Origin: an uncultured Clostridia bacterium
Lineage (GTDB): Bacteria; Bacillota; Clostridia; Oscillospirales; Acutalibacteraceae
Assembly: GCA_947168445.1 (NCBI GenBank)
Contig: CAMVLW010000001.1
Location: 37,603 to 101,602 of the forward strand
Direction: 5' to 3'
DNA length: 64,000 nucleotides
Positions within the stretch are counted from its first letter, which is position 1; every line of letters starts with the position of its first letter. Below, piece after piece: positions 38,437 to 64,000 of the stretch. The notes beneath the pieces were generated by a model. That model saw nothing but the letters and a program-made list of their open reading frames with translations. It was not told where the DNA came from and searched no databases. Both the position numbers and the translations under genes were made by a program.

Positions 38437-39780
38437 ATGTTTAAGAAAAAGCAAAACAAGCTCGTTCCCGTTTCCCTGCTGACAGGTTATCTCGGTGCGG
38501 GCAAAACGACCGTATTAAATCATATTCTCGCCAATCAGAAGGGCTACAAGGTAGCGGTTATCGTCAATGACATCGGCGAGGTCAACATCGACGCTTCCCT
38601 GATTGCCAAGGGCGGCGCTGTGACCCAAAAGGACGAAAACCTTGTGCCGCTGCAAAACGGCTGCATCTGCTGCACCTTAAAGGTCGATTTGATGAAGCAG
38701 ATTATCGAGCTGGCGCGTTCCAAAAAATTTGACTATATTTTGATTGAGGCATCCGGCATTTGCGAGCCCGGTCCGATTGCCGGCTCCATCTGTATGCTCG
38801 ACGGCACTCAAAAGCAGGCAAATCTTCCGGCTGTTGCCTATCTTGACAGCATTACCACCATTGTTGACGCAAAGAGAATGGCGGACGAATTCGGCGCGGG
38901 CAAGGCGCTGCTCAACGAGGATTTGGAGGAAGAGGACATTGAAAACCTGCTGATTCAGCAGATTGAATACTGCACCACCATTATTCTCAACAAGGTCGAT
39001 TTGGTAACGCCTGAGGAAAAGAAAGCAGTTCTGGAAGTGATTAAGGCACTGCAGCCCGAAGCGAAGATTATCGAAACCAACTACGGCAAAATCGACGTGG
39101 AAGAAGTGCTTGGCACCAACAACTTTGACATGCGCAAGATTATGCAGAGCGCAGGCTGGTTAAAGGCAATGGAGCTTGAGGGTGAAAACTCCGAGAACAT
39201 GCACGACGACGAGGACGACGACCACGACGAGCACGAGCACCACCATCATCACGACCATGATGACGAAGATGAGCACGAGCACCACCATCATCATGACCAT
39301 GATGACGATGACGAGCACGAGCACCATCACGACCATGATGACGACGAGCACGAGAAACACGGTCACCACCATCATCACCATCACCACCATGAGGAGGGCG
39401 AAGCGGAGGAATACGGTATCGGCACCTTCGTTTATCAAAACGTAAAGCCCTTCAACAAAGAAAAGTTCGAGCAGTTTGTCTTTGAAAACTGGCCGAAGGA
39501 GGTTATCCGCGCCAAGGGTCTGTTCTGGGTGACAGAAGCGCCCAACACCGCCTATATCTTTGAGCAGAGCGGCAAGCAGAAGTATGCCACCGACGACGGC
39601 GACTGGATTGCCGCCTTCCCGGAGGAAGAGAGAAAAGAAATTCTCGACATGAATCCCGACATTGCCGCCGCATGGCACCCGGTTTACGGCGACAGAGTGA
39701 ACAAGCTGGTGTTTATCGGCAGAAAGATGGACAAGGCAGCGATTATCAAAGCACTTGATGATTGCATTGAAGAACCCTGA
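38437..39780 (+). CDS. CobW/COG0523-family GTP-binding metallochaperone with His/Asp/Glu-rich linker
   Basis: LLTGYLGAGKTTVLNHIL Walker A, NGCICCTLK CxCC motif, ILNKVDLV, His-rich HDDEDDDHDEHEHHHHHDHDDEDEHEHHHHHDHD... Confidence 0.93.
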   Translation: MFKKKQNKLVPVSLLTGYLGAGKTTVLNHILANQKGYKVAVIVNDIGEVNIDASLIAKGGAVTQKDENLVPLQNGCICCTLKVDLMKQIIELARSKKFDYILIEASGICEPGPIAGSICMLDGTQKQANLPAVAYLDSITTIVDAKRMADEFGAGKALLNEDLEEEDIENLLIQQIEYCTTIILNKVDLVTPEEKKAVLEVIKALQPEAKIIETNYGKIDVEEVLGTNNFDMRKIMQSAGWLKAMELEGENSENMHDDEDDDHDEHEHHHHHDHDDEDEHEHHHHHDHDDDDEHEHHHDHDDDEHEKHGHHHHHHHHHEEGEAEEYGIGTFVYQNVKPFNKEKFEQFVFENWPKEVIRAKGLFWVTEAPNTAYIFEQSGKQKYATDDGDWIAAFPEEERKEILDMNPDIAAAWHPVYGDRVNKLVFIGRKMDKAAIIKALDDCIEEP

Positions 39781-50160: not shown

Positions 50161-50311
50161 AACAATTACCAAAATAAGCATAAGGCGCACCACAAGAGTA
50201 CGCCTTAATGATAAAATAAATATAATTACACAACGTCATGACCCGCCGTTGCAGAAACATTATCAAATAATCAACGTTTCCAAAGGCGGACTGCCCACCG
50301 CGGCAGCGGTC

Positions 50312-52519
50312 TTAGTGGCGGTTGTTTCTTCTGCGGTCGTTGTTGCGGGGTCTGCGGGGACGCTGGGGCTTATCGTCACCGTCGTCCTCGGGAGTCAAGC
50401 CGTCAACATCAATCAGCACCTGACGGCGGCTGAGGTTCAGTCTGCCCTTATCGTCGATTTCCGTTACCATGACGCGGATAATATCACCGACATTAACAAC
50501 GTCAGTCACGTTCTCGGTGCGCTTAACGTCAAGCTGAGAAACATGCACAAGACCTTCCTTGCCGGGTGCGATTTCAACAAACGCGCCGAAATCCATAATT
50601 CTGGTTACCTTGCCGAGATAAATTGCGCCGGGTTCGGGATCGGTTGCGATGGTCTGGACAATATCAATCGCGCGCTGGCACTTTTCAGCGTCAAGACCTG
50701 CGACAAATACCTGACCGATTTCGCCGTCCTCTTCAATATCAATCTTAACCTCGCACTCAGCCTGGATTTCCTTGATAACCTTGCCGCTCTTACCGATAAC
50801 CTCGCTGATTTTGTCAGCGGGAATGGTAGTGGTATACATCTTGGGCGCATAGGGAGAAAGCTCGGCTCTGGGCTCGGCAATCGCCTTGAGCATAACCTCG
50901 TCCAGAATAAACAGACGCGCCTTGTGGGTCTTTTCAAGCGCTTCCTTCACCATTTCGGGAGTCAAGCCGCTGATTTTCAAGTCCATCTGAATCGCGGTGA
51001 TTCCGTCGTGCGTACCGGCAACCTTAAAGTCCATGTCGCCGAAGAAGTCCTCCAAGCCCTGAATGTCAACCATGGTCATCCAGCGGTCGCCCTCGGTAAT
51101 CAAGCCGCAGGAGATACCCGCTACGGGAGCCTTGATTGGAACACCCGCGTCCATCAGCGCCAATGTGGAGCCGCAGACAGAGCCCTGAGAGGTGGAACCG
51201 TTGGAGGAAAGCACCTCGGAAACAAGACGCAGCGCATACGGGAATTCCTCAACAGAAGGAATAACAGGCAGCAGCGCGCGCTCTGCAAGAGCACCGTGAC
51301 CGATTTCACGTCTGCCGGGACCGCGGCTGGGCTTGGTCTCGCCTACCGAATAGCTCGGGAAGTTGTAGTGATGAATATATCTTTTTTCGGTTTCGCCGTC
51401 GATACCGTCAAGCAGCTGCTTGTCCCCGATAGAGCCGAGGGTGGCAACGGTGAGAACCTGAGTTTGACCTCTGGTGAACAAACCCGAACCGTGAACTCTG
51501 GGCAGAACCGCAACCTCGCTTGCGAGCGGACGAATATCGTCCATGCCTCTGCCGTCAACGCGCTTTTGCTCATCAAGCAGCCAGCGGCGAACGATAAACT
51601 TCTGGGTCTTATACAGACACTCGTCAATCATTGCTTCCTGCTCGGGATAGATTTCGTCAAATTTTGCGTGGACCGCCTCATAAATGGGCTTGAGTCTTTC
51701 ATCGCGGACAGTCTTGTCGTCGGTATCAAGCGCAGCCTTGACATCCTCCTCGGCAAACGCCTTGATTGCCTCAAACATATCGTGGTCGGGCTCCAGGCTG
51801 GTGAACTCAAACTTGGGCTTGCCGATTTCCGCTTTAATCTCATTGATAAAGTTGATAATCTTCTGGTTTGCCTCATGACCGAACATGATTGCGTTATACA
51901 TATCCTCGTCGGATACGCAGTCGGCGCCTGCTTCAATCATTGCGATTCTCTCACTGGTGGAAGCAACGGTGGTCGCCATCTTGCTGACCTTGCGCTGTTC
52001 CTCGGTGGGGTTAATCACAAACTCGCCGTCAACCATACCGACGGAGCAGCCGGAAATCGGACCGTTCCACGGAATATCGGAAATAGAAATCGCGATAGAC
52101 GCGCCAATCATAGCGATAATTTCAGGCTGACAGTCGGGGTCAACGCTCATAACGGTGCAGACGATAGAAACGTCGTTGCGCATGCTCTTGTCGAACAGCG
52201 GACGAATCGGACGGTCAATCACGCGGCTGGTGAGAATCGCGTGCTCGGTGGGTCTGCCCTCTCTTTTGAGGTAGGAACCGGGAATTCTGCCGGCGGCGTA
52301 CATTTTCTCCTCGTAGTCAACGGACAGCGGGAAGAAATCAACGCCCTCTCTGGGCTTTGCGGAAGCGGTAACGGCACAGTGAACGGTGGTGTCGCCGTAG
52401 GTCACTAAGCAAGCGCCGTTGGCAAGCTGGGTCATTTTGCCTGTTTCAACCTTCAGCGGTCTGCCCGCGAATTCGGTTTCAAACACTCTGTACTTGTCAA
52501 AAGTCATTAATCTGTTCAT
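50312..52519 (-). CDS. pnp: Polyribonucleotide nucleotidyltransferase (PNPase)
   Basis: GDTTVHCAVTASAKPREGVDFFPLSVDYEEKMYAAGRIPGSYLKREGRPTEHAILTSRVIDRPIRPLF; KH and S1 domains at C-terminus. Confidence 0.98.
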   Translation of the reverse strand: MNRLMTFDKYRVFETEFAGRPLKVETGKMTQLANGACLVTYGDTTVHCAVTASAKPREGVDFFPLSVDYEEKMYAAGRIPGSYLKREGRPTEHAILTSRVIDRPIRPLFDKSMRNDVSIVCTVMSVDPDCQPEIIAMIGASIAISISDIPWNGPISGCSVGMVDGEFVINPTEEQRKVSKMATTVASTSERIAMIEAGADCVSDEDMYNAIMFGHEANQKIINFINEIKAEIGKPKFEFTSLEPDHDMFEAIKAFAEEDVKAALDTDDKTVRDERLKPIYEAVHAKFDEIYPEQEAMIDECLYKTQKFIVRRWLLDEQKRVDGRGMDDIRPLASEVAVLPRVHGSGLFTRGQTQVLTVATLGSIGDKQLLDGIDGETEKRYIHHYNFPSYSVGETKPSRGPGRREIGHGALAERALLPVIPSVEEFPYALRLVSEVLSSNGSTSQGSVCGSTLALMDAGVPIKAPVAGISCGLITEGDRWMTMVDIQGLEDFFGDMDFKVAGTHDGITAIQMDLKISGLTPEMVKEALEKTHKARLFILDEVMLKAIAEPRAELSPYAPKMYTTTIPADKISEVIGKSGKVIKEIQAECEVKIDIEEDGEIGQVFVAGLDAEKCQRAIDIVQTIATDPEPGAIYLGKVTRIMDFGAFVEIAPGKEGLVHVSQLDVKRTENVTDVVNVGDIIRVMVTEIDDKGRLNLSRRQVLIDVDGLTPEDDGDDKPQRPRRPRNNDRRRNNRH

Positions 52520-52579
52520 TGTAAAATCCTTTCTGAAAATAATGTAACGGGATTTCACGCCGATTTAGCAATAAAACCA

Positions 52580-52867
52580 GCAACGTGACGTTGCATCCAG
52601 TCCGCCTTTGAATAACGCGGCTGTTAGGAAAAATCGGATTAACGGCGGGTCAAGGGTCATTCTGAAAACAAAATGCAATGTGACGTTGCATCCAGTCCGC
52701 CCTTGAATAACGCGGCTGTTAGGAAAAATCGGTTTAACGGCGGGTCAAGGGTCATTCTGAAAACGAAATGCAATGTGACGTTGCATCCAGTCTGCCCTTG
52801 GATAACGCGGCTGTCAGGTAAAAACGGCTTAACGGCGGGTCAAAACGAATTCTAAGACAAAATGCAG
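52580..52867. repeat. Tandem array: three copies of a 95-bp structured repeat in the rpsO-pnp intergenic region
   Basis: GTGACGTTGCATCCAGTC... begins at 52585, 52680, 52775 (exact 95-bp period); copies 1 and 2 differ at 3 positions; copy 3 more diverged. Confidence 0.95.
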
Positions 52868-52969
52868 CAAAAACAGTGAAATAAAATCAACCCGAAAAAA
52901 GGGAATATAAAACTCACGTTGTTCGTTTTACCGCTAAAAAGCAACGATTAAATCCCGTTATTTGAATTT

Positions 52970-52999
52970 AGGGCAAGCGGGTGTTCCCCTGCTTGCCCT
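52970..52999. other. Strong GC-rich hairpin just downstream of rpsO (no clear U-tract; possible RNA processing site)
   Basis: GGGCAAGCGGGTGTTCCCCTGCTTGCCC. Confidence 0.65.
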
Positions 53000-53012: not shown

Positions 53013-53276
53013 TTACTTACGGATACCGAGTCTGGAAATAATGGAACGGTATCTTTCAATGTCTACCTTTTTGAGGTAACCGAGAAGGCTTCTTCTCTGA
53101 CCAACCATCATCAAAAGACCGCGTCTGCTGTGATGGTCTTTTTTGTGGATCTTGAGGTGCTCGGTGAGGTCGTTGATTCTTCTGGTGAGAAGCGCAATCT
53201 GAACCTCGGGAGAACCTGTGTCGCCCTCGTGGGTAGCGTACTCAGCCATGATAGCTTGCTTTTCTTCTTTTAACAT
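53013..53276 (-). CDS. rpsO: 30S ribosomal protein S15
   Basis: [68 protein letters not shown]. Confidence 0.99.
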
Positions 53277-60905: not shown

Positions 60906-63900
60906 TTATCCGATGCCGAAGCTGCTGTTGTTGGCACATCTGAAATACATGCCGTATTTATTGAACTCGCCGTCGCACTCATAGTCGCCGTAGAAGAACA
61001 TTTCCACTTCGTCAACGCGGCGGGTCAGCAAGCCCCAATAGCACTCGCCCGCGGCGTGGTGGTATTGCAGGAAGCGCGTGGTAAAGGCGCTCTTGTTGAT
61101 ATTGTTCAAATCCCTGCTGCCGCCGGTGGCGGTTGCGGTGGCGTAATCGGAATAAATATACCCGGTGGTGCCGTCTGACAGCTGAATCCTGTACCAGTGG
61201 GAGCTGTAGAGCGTCGCGTCAACAAAGGTGAAGGCTGTGCCCTCGTCCATTGTAGTGACAACACTGTAGCTTGTGCCCGCGCCGCTGCGCAGGTTGACAT
61301 AATCCGTGTTGACATAGCCTGCGCCGCCCGCCTTGACGGTGCCGGTTCCGGAAGAGCCTGTGTTGAGCAGCAGGCTGGAAAGCTGCGAGTCGCTTGTAAG
61401 CGCATAGGCGCCGACATTGTAGGCAAAGCACACCAGCGCGTCAAACTGCTGCTGATTAAAGCGGATACTGTTTGAGGTTAAGAACTGGTTGGTTCTGGTG
61501 GTATAGGGACCGTAGTTGACGGTCTGACAAAGATATGCGTAAGCCTCGTTTTTGGTGAGGTGGTTGTAGAACTGCTCGTTGCGCGTTACCACCTTGCCGT
61601 GACCGACCGTGGGGTCGTCGGTGATGTAGTCGGCGGTGACGTCGGGCAAAAAGCCCTCAAACAGCGCAATCAGCTGAATCACTTCGTCGCTTGCGCGGCG
61701 CTCGCCTAAAACAGTGGTGGTTTTATTGGTGGAATTGGTAACGAAAACCTCTCCCTCACCGTTTTCCGCTGTGGTCGCGTAGTTGGTAGAGGCGGTTTTG
61801 GAATATGCCTTGACCGTCCACTTGCCCGAAGCGCCGAGTGTGGCGGAGCCTGTCCAGATGTAATAATTGCCGTCCTTGACCTTGCTTGTCGCGTCAACGG
61901 TCACGCTGTTGGAGCCGTTGGTGGCGGTGAACCGCACGGCGGTGCGCTGCTGGTCGGTAATTGCCTTAAACGTGACCTTGGAATTCAGCGGCGCCGAGTT
62001 GGGCGACGCATAAACAAAGCGAATGTTATCGGGAGCGGTAACGTGAATCAGACAGCTTGACGAGCCGTAGGAGGTATTGGCATGAATGGTGACATAGCCC
62101 TCCGCCTTGGTGTCTACAATGCCTTTTCCGTCAACAGAGGTCACGGTTGCAATTGAACTGTTGGACGTTCCCCAGCTTACATAATCGTCAGCCTCCAGCA
62201 CAATCGACTTTCCGCAAGGCACATTGACGCTCGTCAGCGAAATGCCGGAGCTGTAGCCGGACGACACCGTAACGGTGCACGAAGCGCTTGAAACGCTGTT
62301 TGACGCGGTGATGGTGACGGTTCCTGTCGCCTTGGCGGTGACAACGCCATATGCGCTGACCGTCGCGATCGCAATATTAGAGCTTGTCCATGTGGCGGTG
62401 GTGGAGCCGGTCATGCCGATGGCATACTGCGTGCCGGTATAGACTCTCGCGGAGGAAACATTCAGCTTGATGTTGCCGACAACGGGCGCGGTGCTCTTGG
62501 TGACTGTCACCAAGCAGGTAGACGCGCCGCTTGACGTGTAAGCGCTGATGGTGGCATAGCCCTCAGACTTTCCGGTGACAACGCCGGAGGCGCTGACGGT
62601 GCAGACGTTGGTGTTGGACGAGAACCAACTCACGCCGCTTGTTTTGGCGGTGAGCGTGGTGGTTTTGCCCGCCTCCACTGTCACGGACGCCTTTGAGATT
62701 CCTGTGGATACGCCGGATTTAACCCTAAACACACAGGATTCCGCCGCGCCCTGCTGAGAAACGGTAATCGTCGCCGTGCCGGTTGACTTGGCGGTCACAA
62801 CGCCGTTGGTGTCAACCGCAGCGACAGAAGGATTGCTGCTTGTCCAAACAGGGTCGTCGGCGCCTGTCTGCCACAGGGCATACTGACAGCCGACATAGGT
62901 TGTTGCCGTGCTGCGGCACAGCGTAATATTCGGAGCGGGCGGCACAGTGACATAATCGCTCTTGACATAGCCCTGCAACCCGTTTTCGGTTTCCACATGA
63001 TACCAGCCGTCGCCGTAAAGGGTTTGGCTGAGGAGATAAAGCTCGGTATCCTTGGTCAGCGTGGTCAGCACGCTGTAGCTTGTTCCGGCGCCGCTGCGCA
63101 TATTGACATAGCTTTCGTTGATATATCCCATGACGGGCGCAAGCTCCGCCGTCGCCTCTGTCACCTGCACCAAACAGGTGGAAGCGCCGTTTGAAGTGTA
63201 TGCGCTGATGGTCGCGTAGCCAATCGCCTTGGCGCTGACAACGCCCGAAGCGCTGACGGTGCAGACGTTGGTGTTTGAGGAAAACCAGTTCACACTCTGC
63301 TTGGCGGTAAGGGGCGCGGTTTTGCCGACCTCAACCTTAATGGAGGAATTGGAAATGCCTGTCGGATTTGCCGCAAGCACCTTAATCACGCAGCTTGCGG
63401 AATACCCGCCTTCGGAAGCGGTAATCGTCGCGCTGCCCGCCGCCTTTGCGGTGACAACGCCGTTACTGTCAACCGTGGCGACAGAAGAATTTGAACTGCT
63501 CCATGACGGACTGTTCGCGCCTGTTTGCCACAGAGCGTACTGACAGCCGGCATAGGTTGTCGCCGTGCTGCGGCACATTTTGATTTTGGATTCCGCGACA
63601 ACCTGCACCAGACAGGTAGAAGCGCCGTTTGAGGTATAGGCGCTGATGGTCGCGTAACCGACCGCCTTTGCCGTAACAACGCCGGAAGCGCTGACGGTGC
63701 AGACGTTGGTATTGGAGGAGAACCAATTCACACTCTGCTTGGCGGTCAGAGAAGCGGTTTTGCCGACCTCAACCGTCACAGAGGGCGTGGAGATTCCCGT
63801 GGGATTTGCCGCCAGCACCTTAATCACACAGCTTGCGGACGAGCCGTTTTCGGACGCGGTAATGGTCGCGCTGCCGGTTCCCTTTGCGGTGACAACGCCG

Positions 63901-64000
63901 TTGCCGTCAACCGTTGCGACTGCGGTGTTGGAGCTGTTCCAAGAAGGACTGCCCGCGCCTGTCTGCCACAAGGCGTACTGACAGCCAACATAGGTGGTTG
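60906..64000 (-). CDS. Large secreted protein with BIG2 Ig-like repeats, two SH3b domains and GH24-type lysozyme domain (5' end beyond right edge)
   Basis: Repeated ATVDxNGVVTAKxxGxATITAS...; SH3b SYVNMRSGAGTSYSVLTTL and DYVNLRSGAGTSYSVVTTM; lysozyme ALFEGFLPDVTADYITDDPTVGHGKVV...RFNQQQFDALVCFAYNVGAYAL; frame open to edge. Confidence 0.9.
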   Translation of the reverse strand, partial: TTYVGCQYALWQTGAGSPSWNSSNTAVATVDGNGVVTAKGTGSATITASENGSSASCVIKVLAANPTGISTPSVTVEVGKTASLTAKQSVNWFSSNTNVCTVSASGVVTAKAVGYATISAYTSNGASTCLVQVVAESKIKMCRSTATTYAGCQYALWQTGANSPSWSSSNSSVATVDSNGVVTAKAAGSATITASEGGYSASCVIKVLAANPTGISNSSIKVEVGKTAPLTAKQSVNWFSSNTNVCTVSASGVVSAKAIGYATISAYTSNGASTCLVQVTEATAELAPVMGYINESYVNMRSGAGTSYSVLTTLTKDTELYLLSQTLYGDGWYHVETENGLQGYVKSDYVTVPPAPNITLCRSTATTYVGCQYALWQTGADDPVWTSSNPSVAAVDTNGVVTAKSTGTATITVSQQGAAESCVFRVKSGVSTGISKASVTVEAGKTTTLTAKTSGVSWFSSNTNVCTVSASGVVTGKSEGYATISAYTSSGASTCLVTVTKSTAPVVGNIKLNVSSARVYTGTQYAIGMTGSTTATWTSSNIAIATVSAYGVVTAKATGTVTITASNSVSSASCTVTVSSGYSSGISLTSVNVPCGKSIVLEADDYVSWGTSNSSIATVTSVDGKGIVDTKAEGYVTIHANTSYGSSSCLIHVTAPDNIRFVYASPNSAPLNSKVTFKAITDQQRTAVRFTATNGSNSVTVDATSKVKDGNYYIWTGSATLGASGKWTVKAYSKTASTNYATTAENGEGEVFVTNSTNKTTTVLGERRASDEVIQLIALFEGFLPDVTADYITDDPTVGHGKVVTRNEQFYNHLTKNEAYAYLCQTVNYGPYTTRTNQFLTSNSIRFNQQQFDALVCFAYNVGAYALTSDSQLSSLLLNTGSSGTGTVKAGGAGYVNTDYVNLRSGAGTSYSVVTTMDEGTAFTFVDATLYSSHWYRIQLSDGTTGYIYSDYATATATGGSRDLNNINKSAFTTRFLQYHHAAGECYWGLLTRRVDEVEMFFYGDYECDGEFNKYGMYFRCANNSSFGIG
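62575..64000. repeat. Near-identical BIG2-domain coding repeats
   Basis: GCGCTGACGGTGCAGACGTTGGTGTT-type segment at 62590, 63250 and 63688; last two are 438 bp (146 codons) apart with long flanking identity. Confidence 0.85.

Follow-up and report, generated by a model that had tools for sequence, protein, structure and literature searches.

A three-unit tandem array in the pnp leader of an uncultured Clostridia bacterium probably derives from a dispersed REP-like hairpin element

In the genome of an uncultured Clostridia bacterium of the Acutalibacteraceae, a tandem array of 95-bp units lies between rpsO and pnp, which raises the question whether the array takes part in the control of pnp or is a repeat of other origin that settled there. 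The 64,000-nucleotide stretch of DNA that was analysed is called the window here. Both rpsO (87 aa; 53013-53276) and pnp (50312-52519) are encoded on the minus strand; the start of pnp was taken at the ATG at 52519, the listed open reading frame beginning upstream at a GTG. The units on the plus strand are thus antisense to both genes. Probably, the array arose by local multiplication, from one to three copies, of a dispersed, non-autonomous, REP-like element, and is mainly a passenger at pnp.

The array was detected by Tandem Repeats Finder (period 95 at 52580-52843, 94% matches, score 458), and repeat finding delimited three head-to-tail copies at spacings of 95 and 95 bp (52580-52864), a copy number read from an assembly of 118 contigs that is 85% complete. 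In the register starting at 52580, unit 1 (52580-52674) and unit 2 (52675-52769) differ at 4 of 95 positions, and unit 3 (52770-52864), the 3' end of which is degraded, differs from them at 19 and 18 positions, respectively. Since the copies differ from one another, a simple duplication in the assembly does not account for the array. An earlier reading of the locus made from its letters alone (the sequence-only reading) had described three head-to-tail copies with a 95-bp period, a degraded third copy and a short inverted repeat in each unit, all of which was borne out; its count of three differences between copies 1 and 2 holds in the register starting at 52585, in which the difference at 52584 falls away.

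Each unit consists of a 19-nt first hairpin, hp1, of the form GCARCG-TGA-CGYTGC-AYCC, followed by a second, longer hairpin, hp2. In unit 1, hp1 (52580-52598) reads GCAACG-TGA-CGTTGC-ATCC, a 6-bp stem with a TGA loop and an unpaired AYCC tag, and in units 2 and 3 (52675-52693 and 52770-52788) the stem GCAATG/CGTTGC contains one G-U pair. The hp2 of unit 1 (52599-52651) has arms at 52599-52606 (AGTCCGCC) and 52644-52651 (GGCGGGTC) around a variable interior of 37 nt, and lies at +95 and +190 from there in units 2 and 3. Unit 1 scored 71.5 bits (E 1.9e-17) against the covariance model R1, of which it is itself a training sequence. In an alignment of 45 related elements, 57 changes on both sides of a pair were counted versus 27 in shuffles, none of 500 shuffles reached the observed score, and covariation in slid controls was far lower. 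The pairing of hp1 is kept in all 45 elements, two of its base pairs having changed on both sides, and in hp2 the arms covary as (AGT)CCGCC/GGCGG(GTC) (0 of 500 shuffles). The longer stem CCCTTGA...TCAAGGG, which had been proposed for copies 1 and 2, was found in part: CCCTTGA occurs only in copy 2, while copy 1 reads CCTTTGA and copy 3 CCCTTGG. It shows no covariation in the 45 relatives (171 of 500 shuffles score at least as high as observed). This stem was rejected, as was an inner TTGA/TCAA stem, which likewise lacked support from covariation.

Across all loci collected, the stem of hp1 varies by compensatory changes around a fixed TGA loop and AYCC tag. The loop is TGA in 282 of 304 perfect 6-bp hairpins preceding AYCC, with 17 different stems, and each other loop occurs one to five times; most loci were fetched by the two main stems, for which these counts are biased, the other stems being unselected. 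The left boundary is sharp, with a purine preceding hp1 in 91% of 339 copies and no further flank consensus in this set. AATT follows AYCC as a consensus. At six loci, the 5' half of hp1 is tandemly repeated before the full hairpin, as in GCAACGTGAC GCAACGTGACGTTGC.

The element is dispersed in this genome and, in bursts, among its relatives. A search with the array doublet returned further partial matches in the genome, and the hp1 core returned many more: the pattern GCANNNTGANNNTGCAYCC matches 28 times versus none for the reversed-pattern control. The hp1 pattern is present in 58 of 120 congeners with 1-53 copies each (control approximately 0), sister species ranging from 0 to 53 copies, and the exact 19-mer was found in 5 of 200 genomes of the family. 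Orthologous sites that are filled in this genome are empty in most relatives. These patchy bursts support the earlier suggestion of a dispersed REP-like family or non-autonomous element. At least 118 stretches with exact hp1 copies were found in GTDB genomes of several phyla, the matches listed including Ruminococcus and other Clostridia, Selenomonadaceae, Quinella, Propionigenium, Fusobacteriaceae and Verrucomicrobia, among others. Exact copies occur in Clostridia, Negativicutes, Fusobacteria and Verrucomicrobia as well as in viral contigs. Single matches in large genomes are partly expected by chance, so the breadth of the family rests on genomes with many copies, such as Propionigenium maris (64) and metagenome-assembled genomes of Verrucomicrobia (55), Selenomonadaceae (45) and Methylacidiphilaceae (42). 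The 60 stretches with hp1 in viral contigs, which perhaps in part match by chance or within coding sequence, were used only where hp1 joins a stop and a start codon. The idea that hp1-rich regions are cassette arrays was rejected, as their gene lists are those of ordinary neighbourhoods. No description of the exact hairpin was found in the open-access literature and Rfam, which served as yardstick.

Many copies of hp1 lie at gene ends in sense orientation. Among 269 copies, 25 begin directly after a stop codon on the same strand and 12 overlap the last base of such a codon (TA|G); these 37 same-strand cases at offset 0 or -1 compare with none on the opposite strand. In 23 more copies, the TGA of the loop is the stop codon of a long reading frame, although many of these frames are perhaps spurious. 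In this genome, the genes ending at hp1 include, as named by inspection of their sequences, ppa, groEL, glgP, map, argB, mnmE, cysK and a rubredoxin gene. The 3' end of one tRNA-Gly gene abuts hp1 exactly, and three more CCA ends at hp1 resemble tRNA or tmRNA ends, which ARAGORN, run with default settings, did not call. The Propionigenium elements lie within an A-tract immediately before terminator-like hairpins. In eight viral contigs, hp1 stands precisely at the junction of two genes, after the stop codon of the first and before the ATG of the second, and several of these junctions have the form stop-hp1-AANN-ATG.

A copy of the flank preceding hp1 recurs at the distal end of the unit at 35 of 237 loci, as compared with 3 of 584 control positions. 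With tandem arrays set aside, these flank duplications vary in length from 12 to 56 nt. This fits either long target duplications or tandem duplication of local DNA, and some of the loci are clearly of the latter kind. Close pairs of hp1 are oriented head-to-tail in 43 of 46 cases, and an inverted hp1 at the far end was found in only a few loci. A comparison of filled and empty sites was sought in phages, where two queries matched only themselves and the relatives of a third were too diverged to delimit the insert. A trans-acting enzyme might recognize the hairpin as single-stranded DNA (or RNA) and copy the element into new sites. Insertions at gene ends would survive because they do the least harm there and because the enzyme may prefer such sites, and slippage or unequal exchange could then produce arrays, taking along some of the flanking DNA.

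The exact contact with stop codons could also reflect function. Here, hp1 would be a functional RNA element of gene ends that is kept and re-created by selection, be it that the ribosome meets the hairpin at the stop codon, that the 3' end of the mRNA is protected or that re-initiation at the next gene is controlled. The bias for the sense strand, the in-frame stop codon in the loop, the junctions between viral genes, the abutting tRNA-Gly gene and the compensatory stem changes around a fixed loop and tag are all consistent with such a role. However, hp1 is patchy among close species and missing from most orthologous genes, its loci include flank duplications and arrays, and the copies in the window are antisense and inside a leader. 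Overall, selection for a function at gene ends is considered an unlikely explanation of the family, and a mobile repeat with a preference for gene ends is favoured.

BOX-type mosaic repeats and MITEs of Gram-positive bacteria are modular, intergenic and transcribed hairpin repeats of about 100 bp. In anatomy, by which alone the two are likened, the hp1 element resembles them as a modular, intergenic hairpin repeat. MITEs have terminal inverted repeats and a target duplication of fixed length, whereas terminal inverted repeats of this kind do not seem to run through the hp1 family and the flank duplications at hp1 loci vary in length. In the broad sense of the term, which covers dispersed extragenic palindromes of 20-40 bp, hp1 counts as a REP, as it is a short palindrome with many copies that are mostly extragenic and near gene ends. 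Two super-families of tagged REPs have been described, which are dispersed, mostly near the 3' ends of genes, and sometimes provide the stop codon (PMC3733652). GTAG-tagged REPs have an unpaired GTAG at one end, are associated with RAYT (Y1) genes and form mainly inverted pairs (HH/TT), head-to-tail pairs (HT) being rare; CGTC REPs have an unpaired CGTC (TGTC, CCTC) end, a stem of 8-9 bp, a loop of 4-5 nt and a CCA-like tail and are without known transposase (PMC3733652). Like both, hp1 is a palindrome that lies at gene ends, varies in its stem by compensatory changes and keeps a constant unpaired tag on one side. In contrast to both, its loop is fixed as TGA, and its hosts among the Clostridia, Negativicutes and Fusobacteria are outside the phyla listed for these REPs (PMC3733652). 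The AYCC tag (GGRT on the other strand), the head-to-tail pairs and the missing association with a RAYT gene distinguish hp1 from GTAG REPs, and the 6-bp stem, 3-nt TGA loop and AYCC tag from CGTC REPs, with which it shares the lack of a dedicated transposase as judged on Y1 and RVT_1 proteins. REPINs, each an inverted pair of REPs linked to a RAYT gene (PMC3116915), are likewise non-autonomous miniature hairpin elements spreading within a genome, but neither the inverted pairing nor the RAYT link holds for hp1. Given its different tag, loop, pair orientation and host groups, the element was placed in neither super-family; the best reading is that it works like a REP.

A strict REP/RAYT system would consist of REP hairpins and a Y1 HUH transposase, with the transposase having been lost here or missed in an incomplete assembly. 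This would agree with a palindrome bearing a one-sided unpaired tag, with the high copy number and with the location at gene ends, as described for such systems (PMC3733652), and some copy-rich genomes do carry Y1 genes. However, no Y1 match was found in this genome and seven further copy-bearing genomes, and hp1 was found beside none of 30 Y1 loci; incomplete assemblies weaken single absences of Y1 or RVT_1, less so the whole set. Y1 genes are also present in some species without hp1, and the tandem rather than inverted pairs argue against this system as well. On presence and absence and on gene flanks, a RAYT/Y1 transposase was rejected as the mover, and a strict REP/RAYT system is very unlikely. 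A reverse transcriptase was rejected too, as RVT_1 is absent from many copy-rich genomes and shows no association with copy number. As for an integron attC-like site, the attC motif was not seen by eye.

The covariance model search, a check proposed with the sequence-only reading, revealed a further related element on the minus strand directly after the pnp stop codon, sense to pnp (50240-50311; 34 bits, E 2.2e-7). Its hp2 body (50240-50293) corresponds to that of the array units, and its first hairpin is ACCGC-TGCC-GCGGT-GGGC (approximately 50297-50310), which is separated from the pnp stop codon by one base. In the sister species G218, the body at the ends of groEL and cysK is preceded by GCCGC-CAC-GCGGC-AGGA and CCCAT-TGCC-ATGGG-AGGG, respectively, at places where hp1 is located in this genome. 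With a common hp2 body behind different palindromes, the first hairpins appear to be exchangeable, and the differences at the ends of groEL and cysK point to an exchange of modules or to rapid turnover rather than to simple copying. The hp2 body was also seen after other palindromes at six loci, e.g., GCCGC-CAC-GCGGC, CCCAT-TGCC-ATGGG and GCGAC-CGA-GTCGC.

A bolder reading, to be regarded as tentative, is that these are cross-phylum mobile gene-end hairpins with a TGA loop and an AYCC tag, which insert with precision where reading frames and stable RNAs end, by means of a mover other than a Y1 transposase or a reverse transcriptase, and which carry swappable first hairpins on a common hp2 body. 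If so, a third super-family would join the two of tagged extragenic palindromes, one that singles out stop codons very sharply and occurs in bacterial groups for which such repeats have not been listed. The bursts among sister species make a search for the mover tractable by comparative genomics. The interest of the locus lies in this hairpin family with its stop-codon habit and, in addition, in the pnp leader.

Between rpsO and pnp, a long double-stranded leader hairpin is present, as in pnp leaders controlled by RNase III. A terminator-like inverted repeat just after rpsO (52970-52999, minus strand) also follows rpsO in relatives. It is followed by the leader, the outer stem of which is an inverted repeat with its 5' arm at 52950-52969 (AACGGGATTT...) and its 3' arm at 52536-52555 (AAATCCCGTT...). 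Within it, a helix with a 5' arm at 52925-52938 (RNA UUUAGCGGUAAAAC) and a 3' arm at 52564-52577 (RNA GUUUUAUUGCUAAA), all on the minus strand, encloses the whole array as its tip. Unit 1 abuts the conserved leader motif, the plus strand reading ...AATAAAACCA|GCAACG, so that hp1 stands against the CCA/TGG closing the helix. The helix UUUAGCGGUAAAAC/GUUUUAUUGCUAAA and the outer stem (ACGGGAUUU/AAAUCCCGU) are conserved in all 24 leaders extracted from the genus, and the predicted probability of the helix is approximately 1 in all 24, with or without an insert. By inspection, a compensatory change from C-G to U-A at the end of the helix was found in three species. The tip varies in sequence and length, with unrelated inserts of 39-334 nt in other species. 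One element is present at the same spot in G218, and most relatives have none.

Least probable is a reading in which the repeat itself takes part in the control of pnp, for instance by adding RNase III sites to the tip of the leader: the array does lie within the leader, extra hairpins are predicted from it in the pnp mRNA and the pnp leaders of other organisms are targeted by RNase III (PMC5872136), but hp1 was found in only one of 22 related rpsO-pnp regions besides this genome, which speaks against the cis-acting RNA that had been considered, and the leader helix is kept where the repeat is missing and where tips carry unrelated inserts. With a leader predicted to be intact, one copy in G218 and none in most species, the array is most likely a tolerated REP-like repeat. 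It would have inserted into the variable tip, which can accommodate added length, and the folding of the control helix is predicted to be unchanged. The tip of the pnp leader seems to be a site at which repeats often settle. Side observations on tips of other leaders are a different repeat-like palindrome (GTAGGGACGACC...CGTCCCTAC) in one and a length of 334 nt in another.

The hint at RNase III/PNPase control that had been drawn from the location was well placed, but it concerns the leader hairpin and not the repeat. In E. coli and Streptomyces, RNase III targets hairpins between rpsO and pnp (PMC5872136), from which a similar role of the leader reported here can reasonably be inferred. As in these organisms, the helix lies between the rpsO terminator and pnp; in contrast to them, the leader sequence is genus-specific within the sequences tested. 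The conserved leader may thus be regarded as a candidate RNase III/PNPase control element. No Rfam family matched in the window at its gathering cut-off, the pnp region giving only sub-threshold chance matches. As a useful by-product, the analysis brought out a conserved pnp leader that matches no Rfam family. With natural insertions of varied size in its tip, this leader lends itself readily to testing the autocontrol of PNPase in Clostridia.

Two other tandem repeats were observed in the window. One, at 39224-39354, has the consensus GACGAGCACGAGCACCACCATCATCATGACCATGATGACGAA, the translation of which in that frame would give a stretch rich in His, Asp and Glu; the other, at 63163-63995, has a period of 438 bp and 1.9 copies and lies at the window end.
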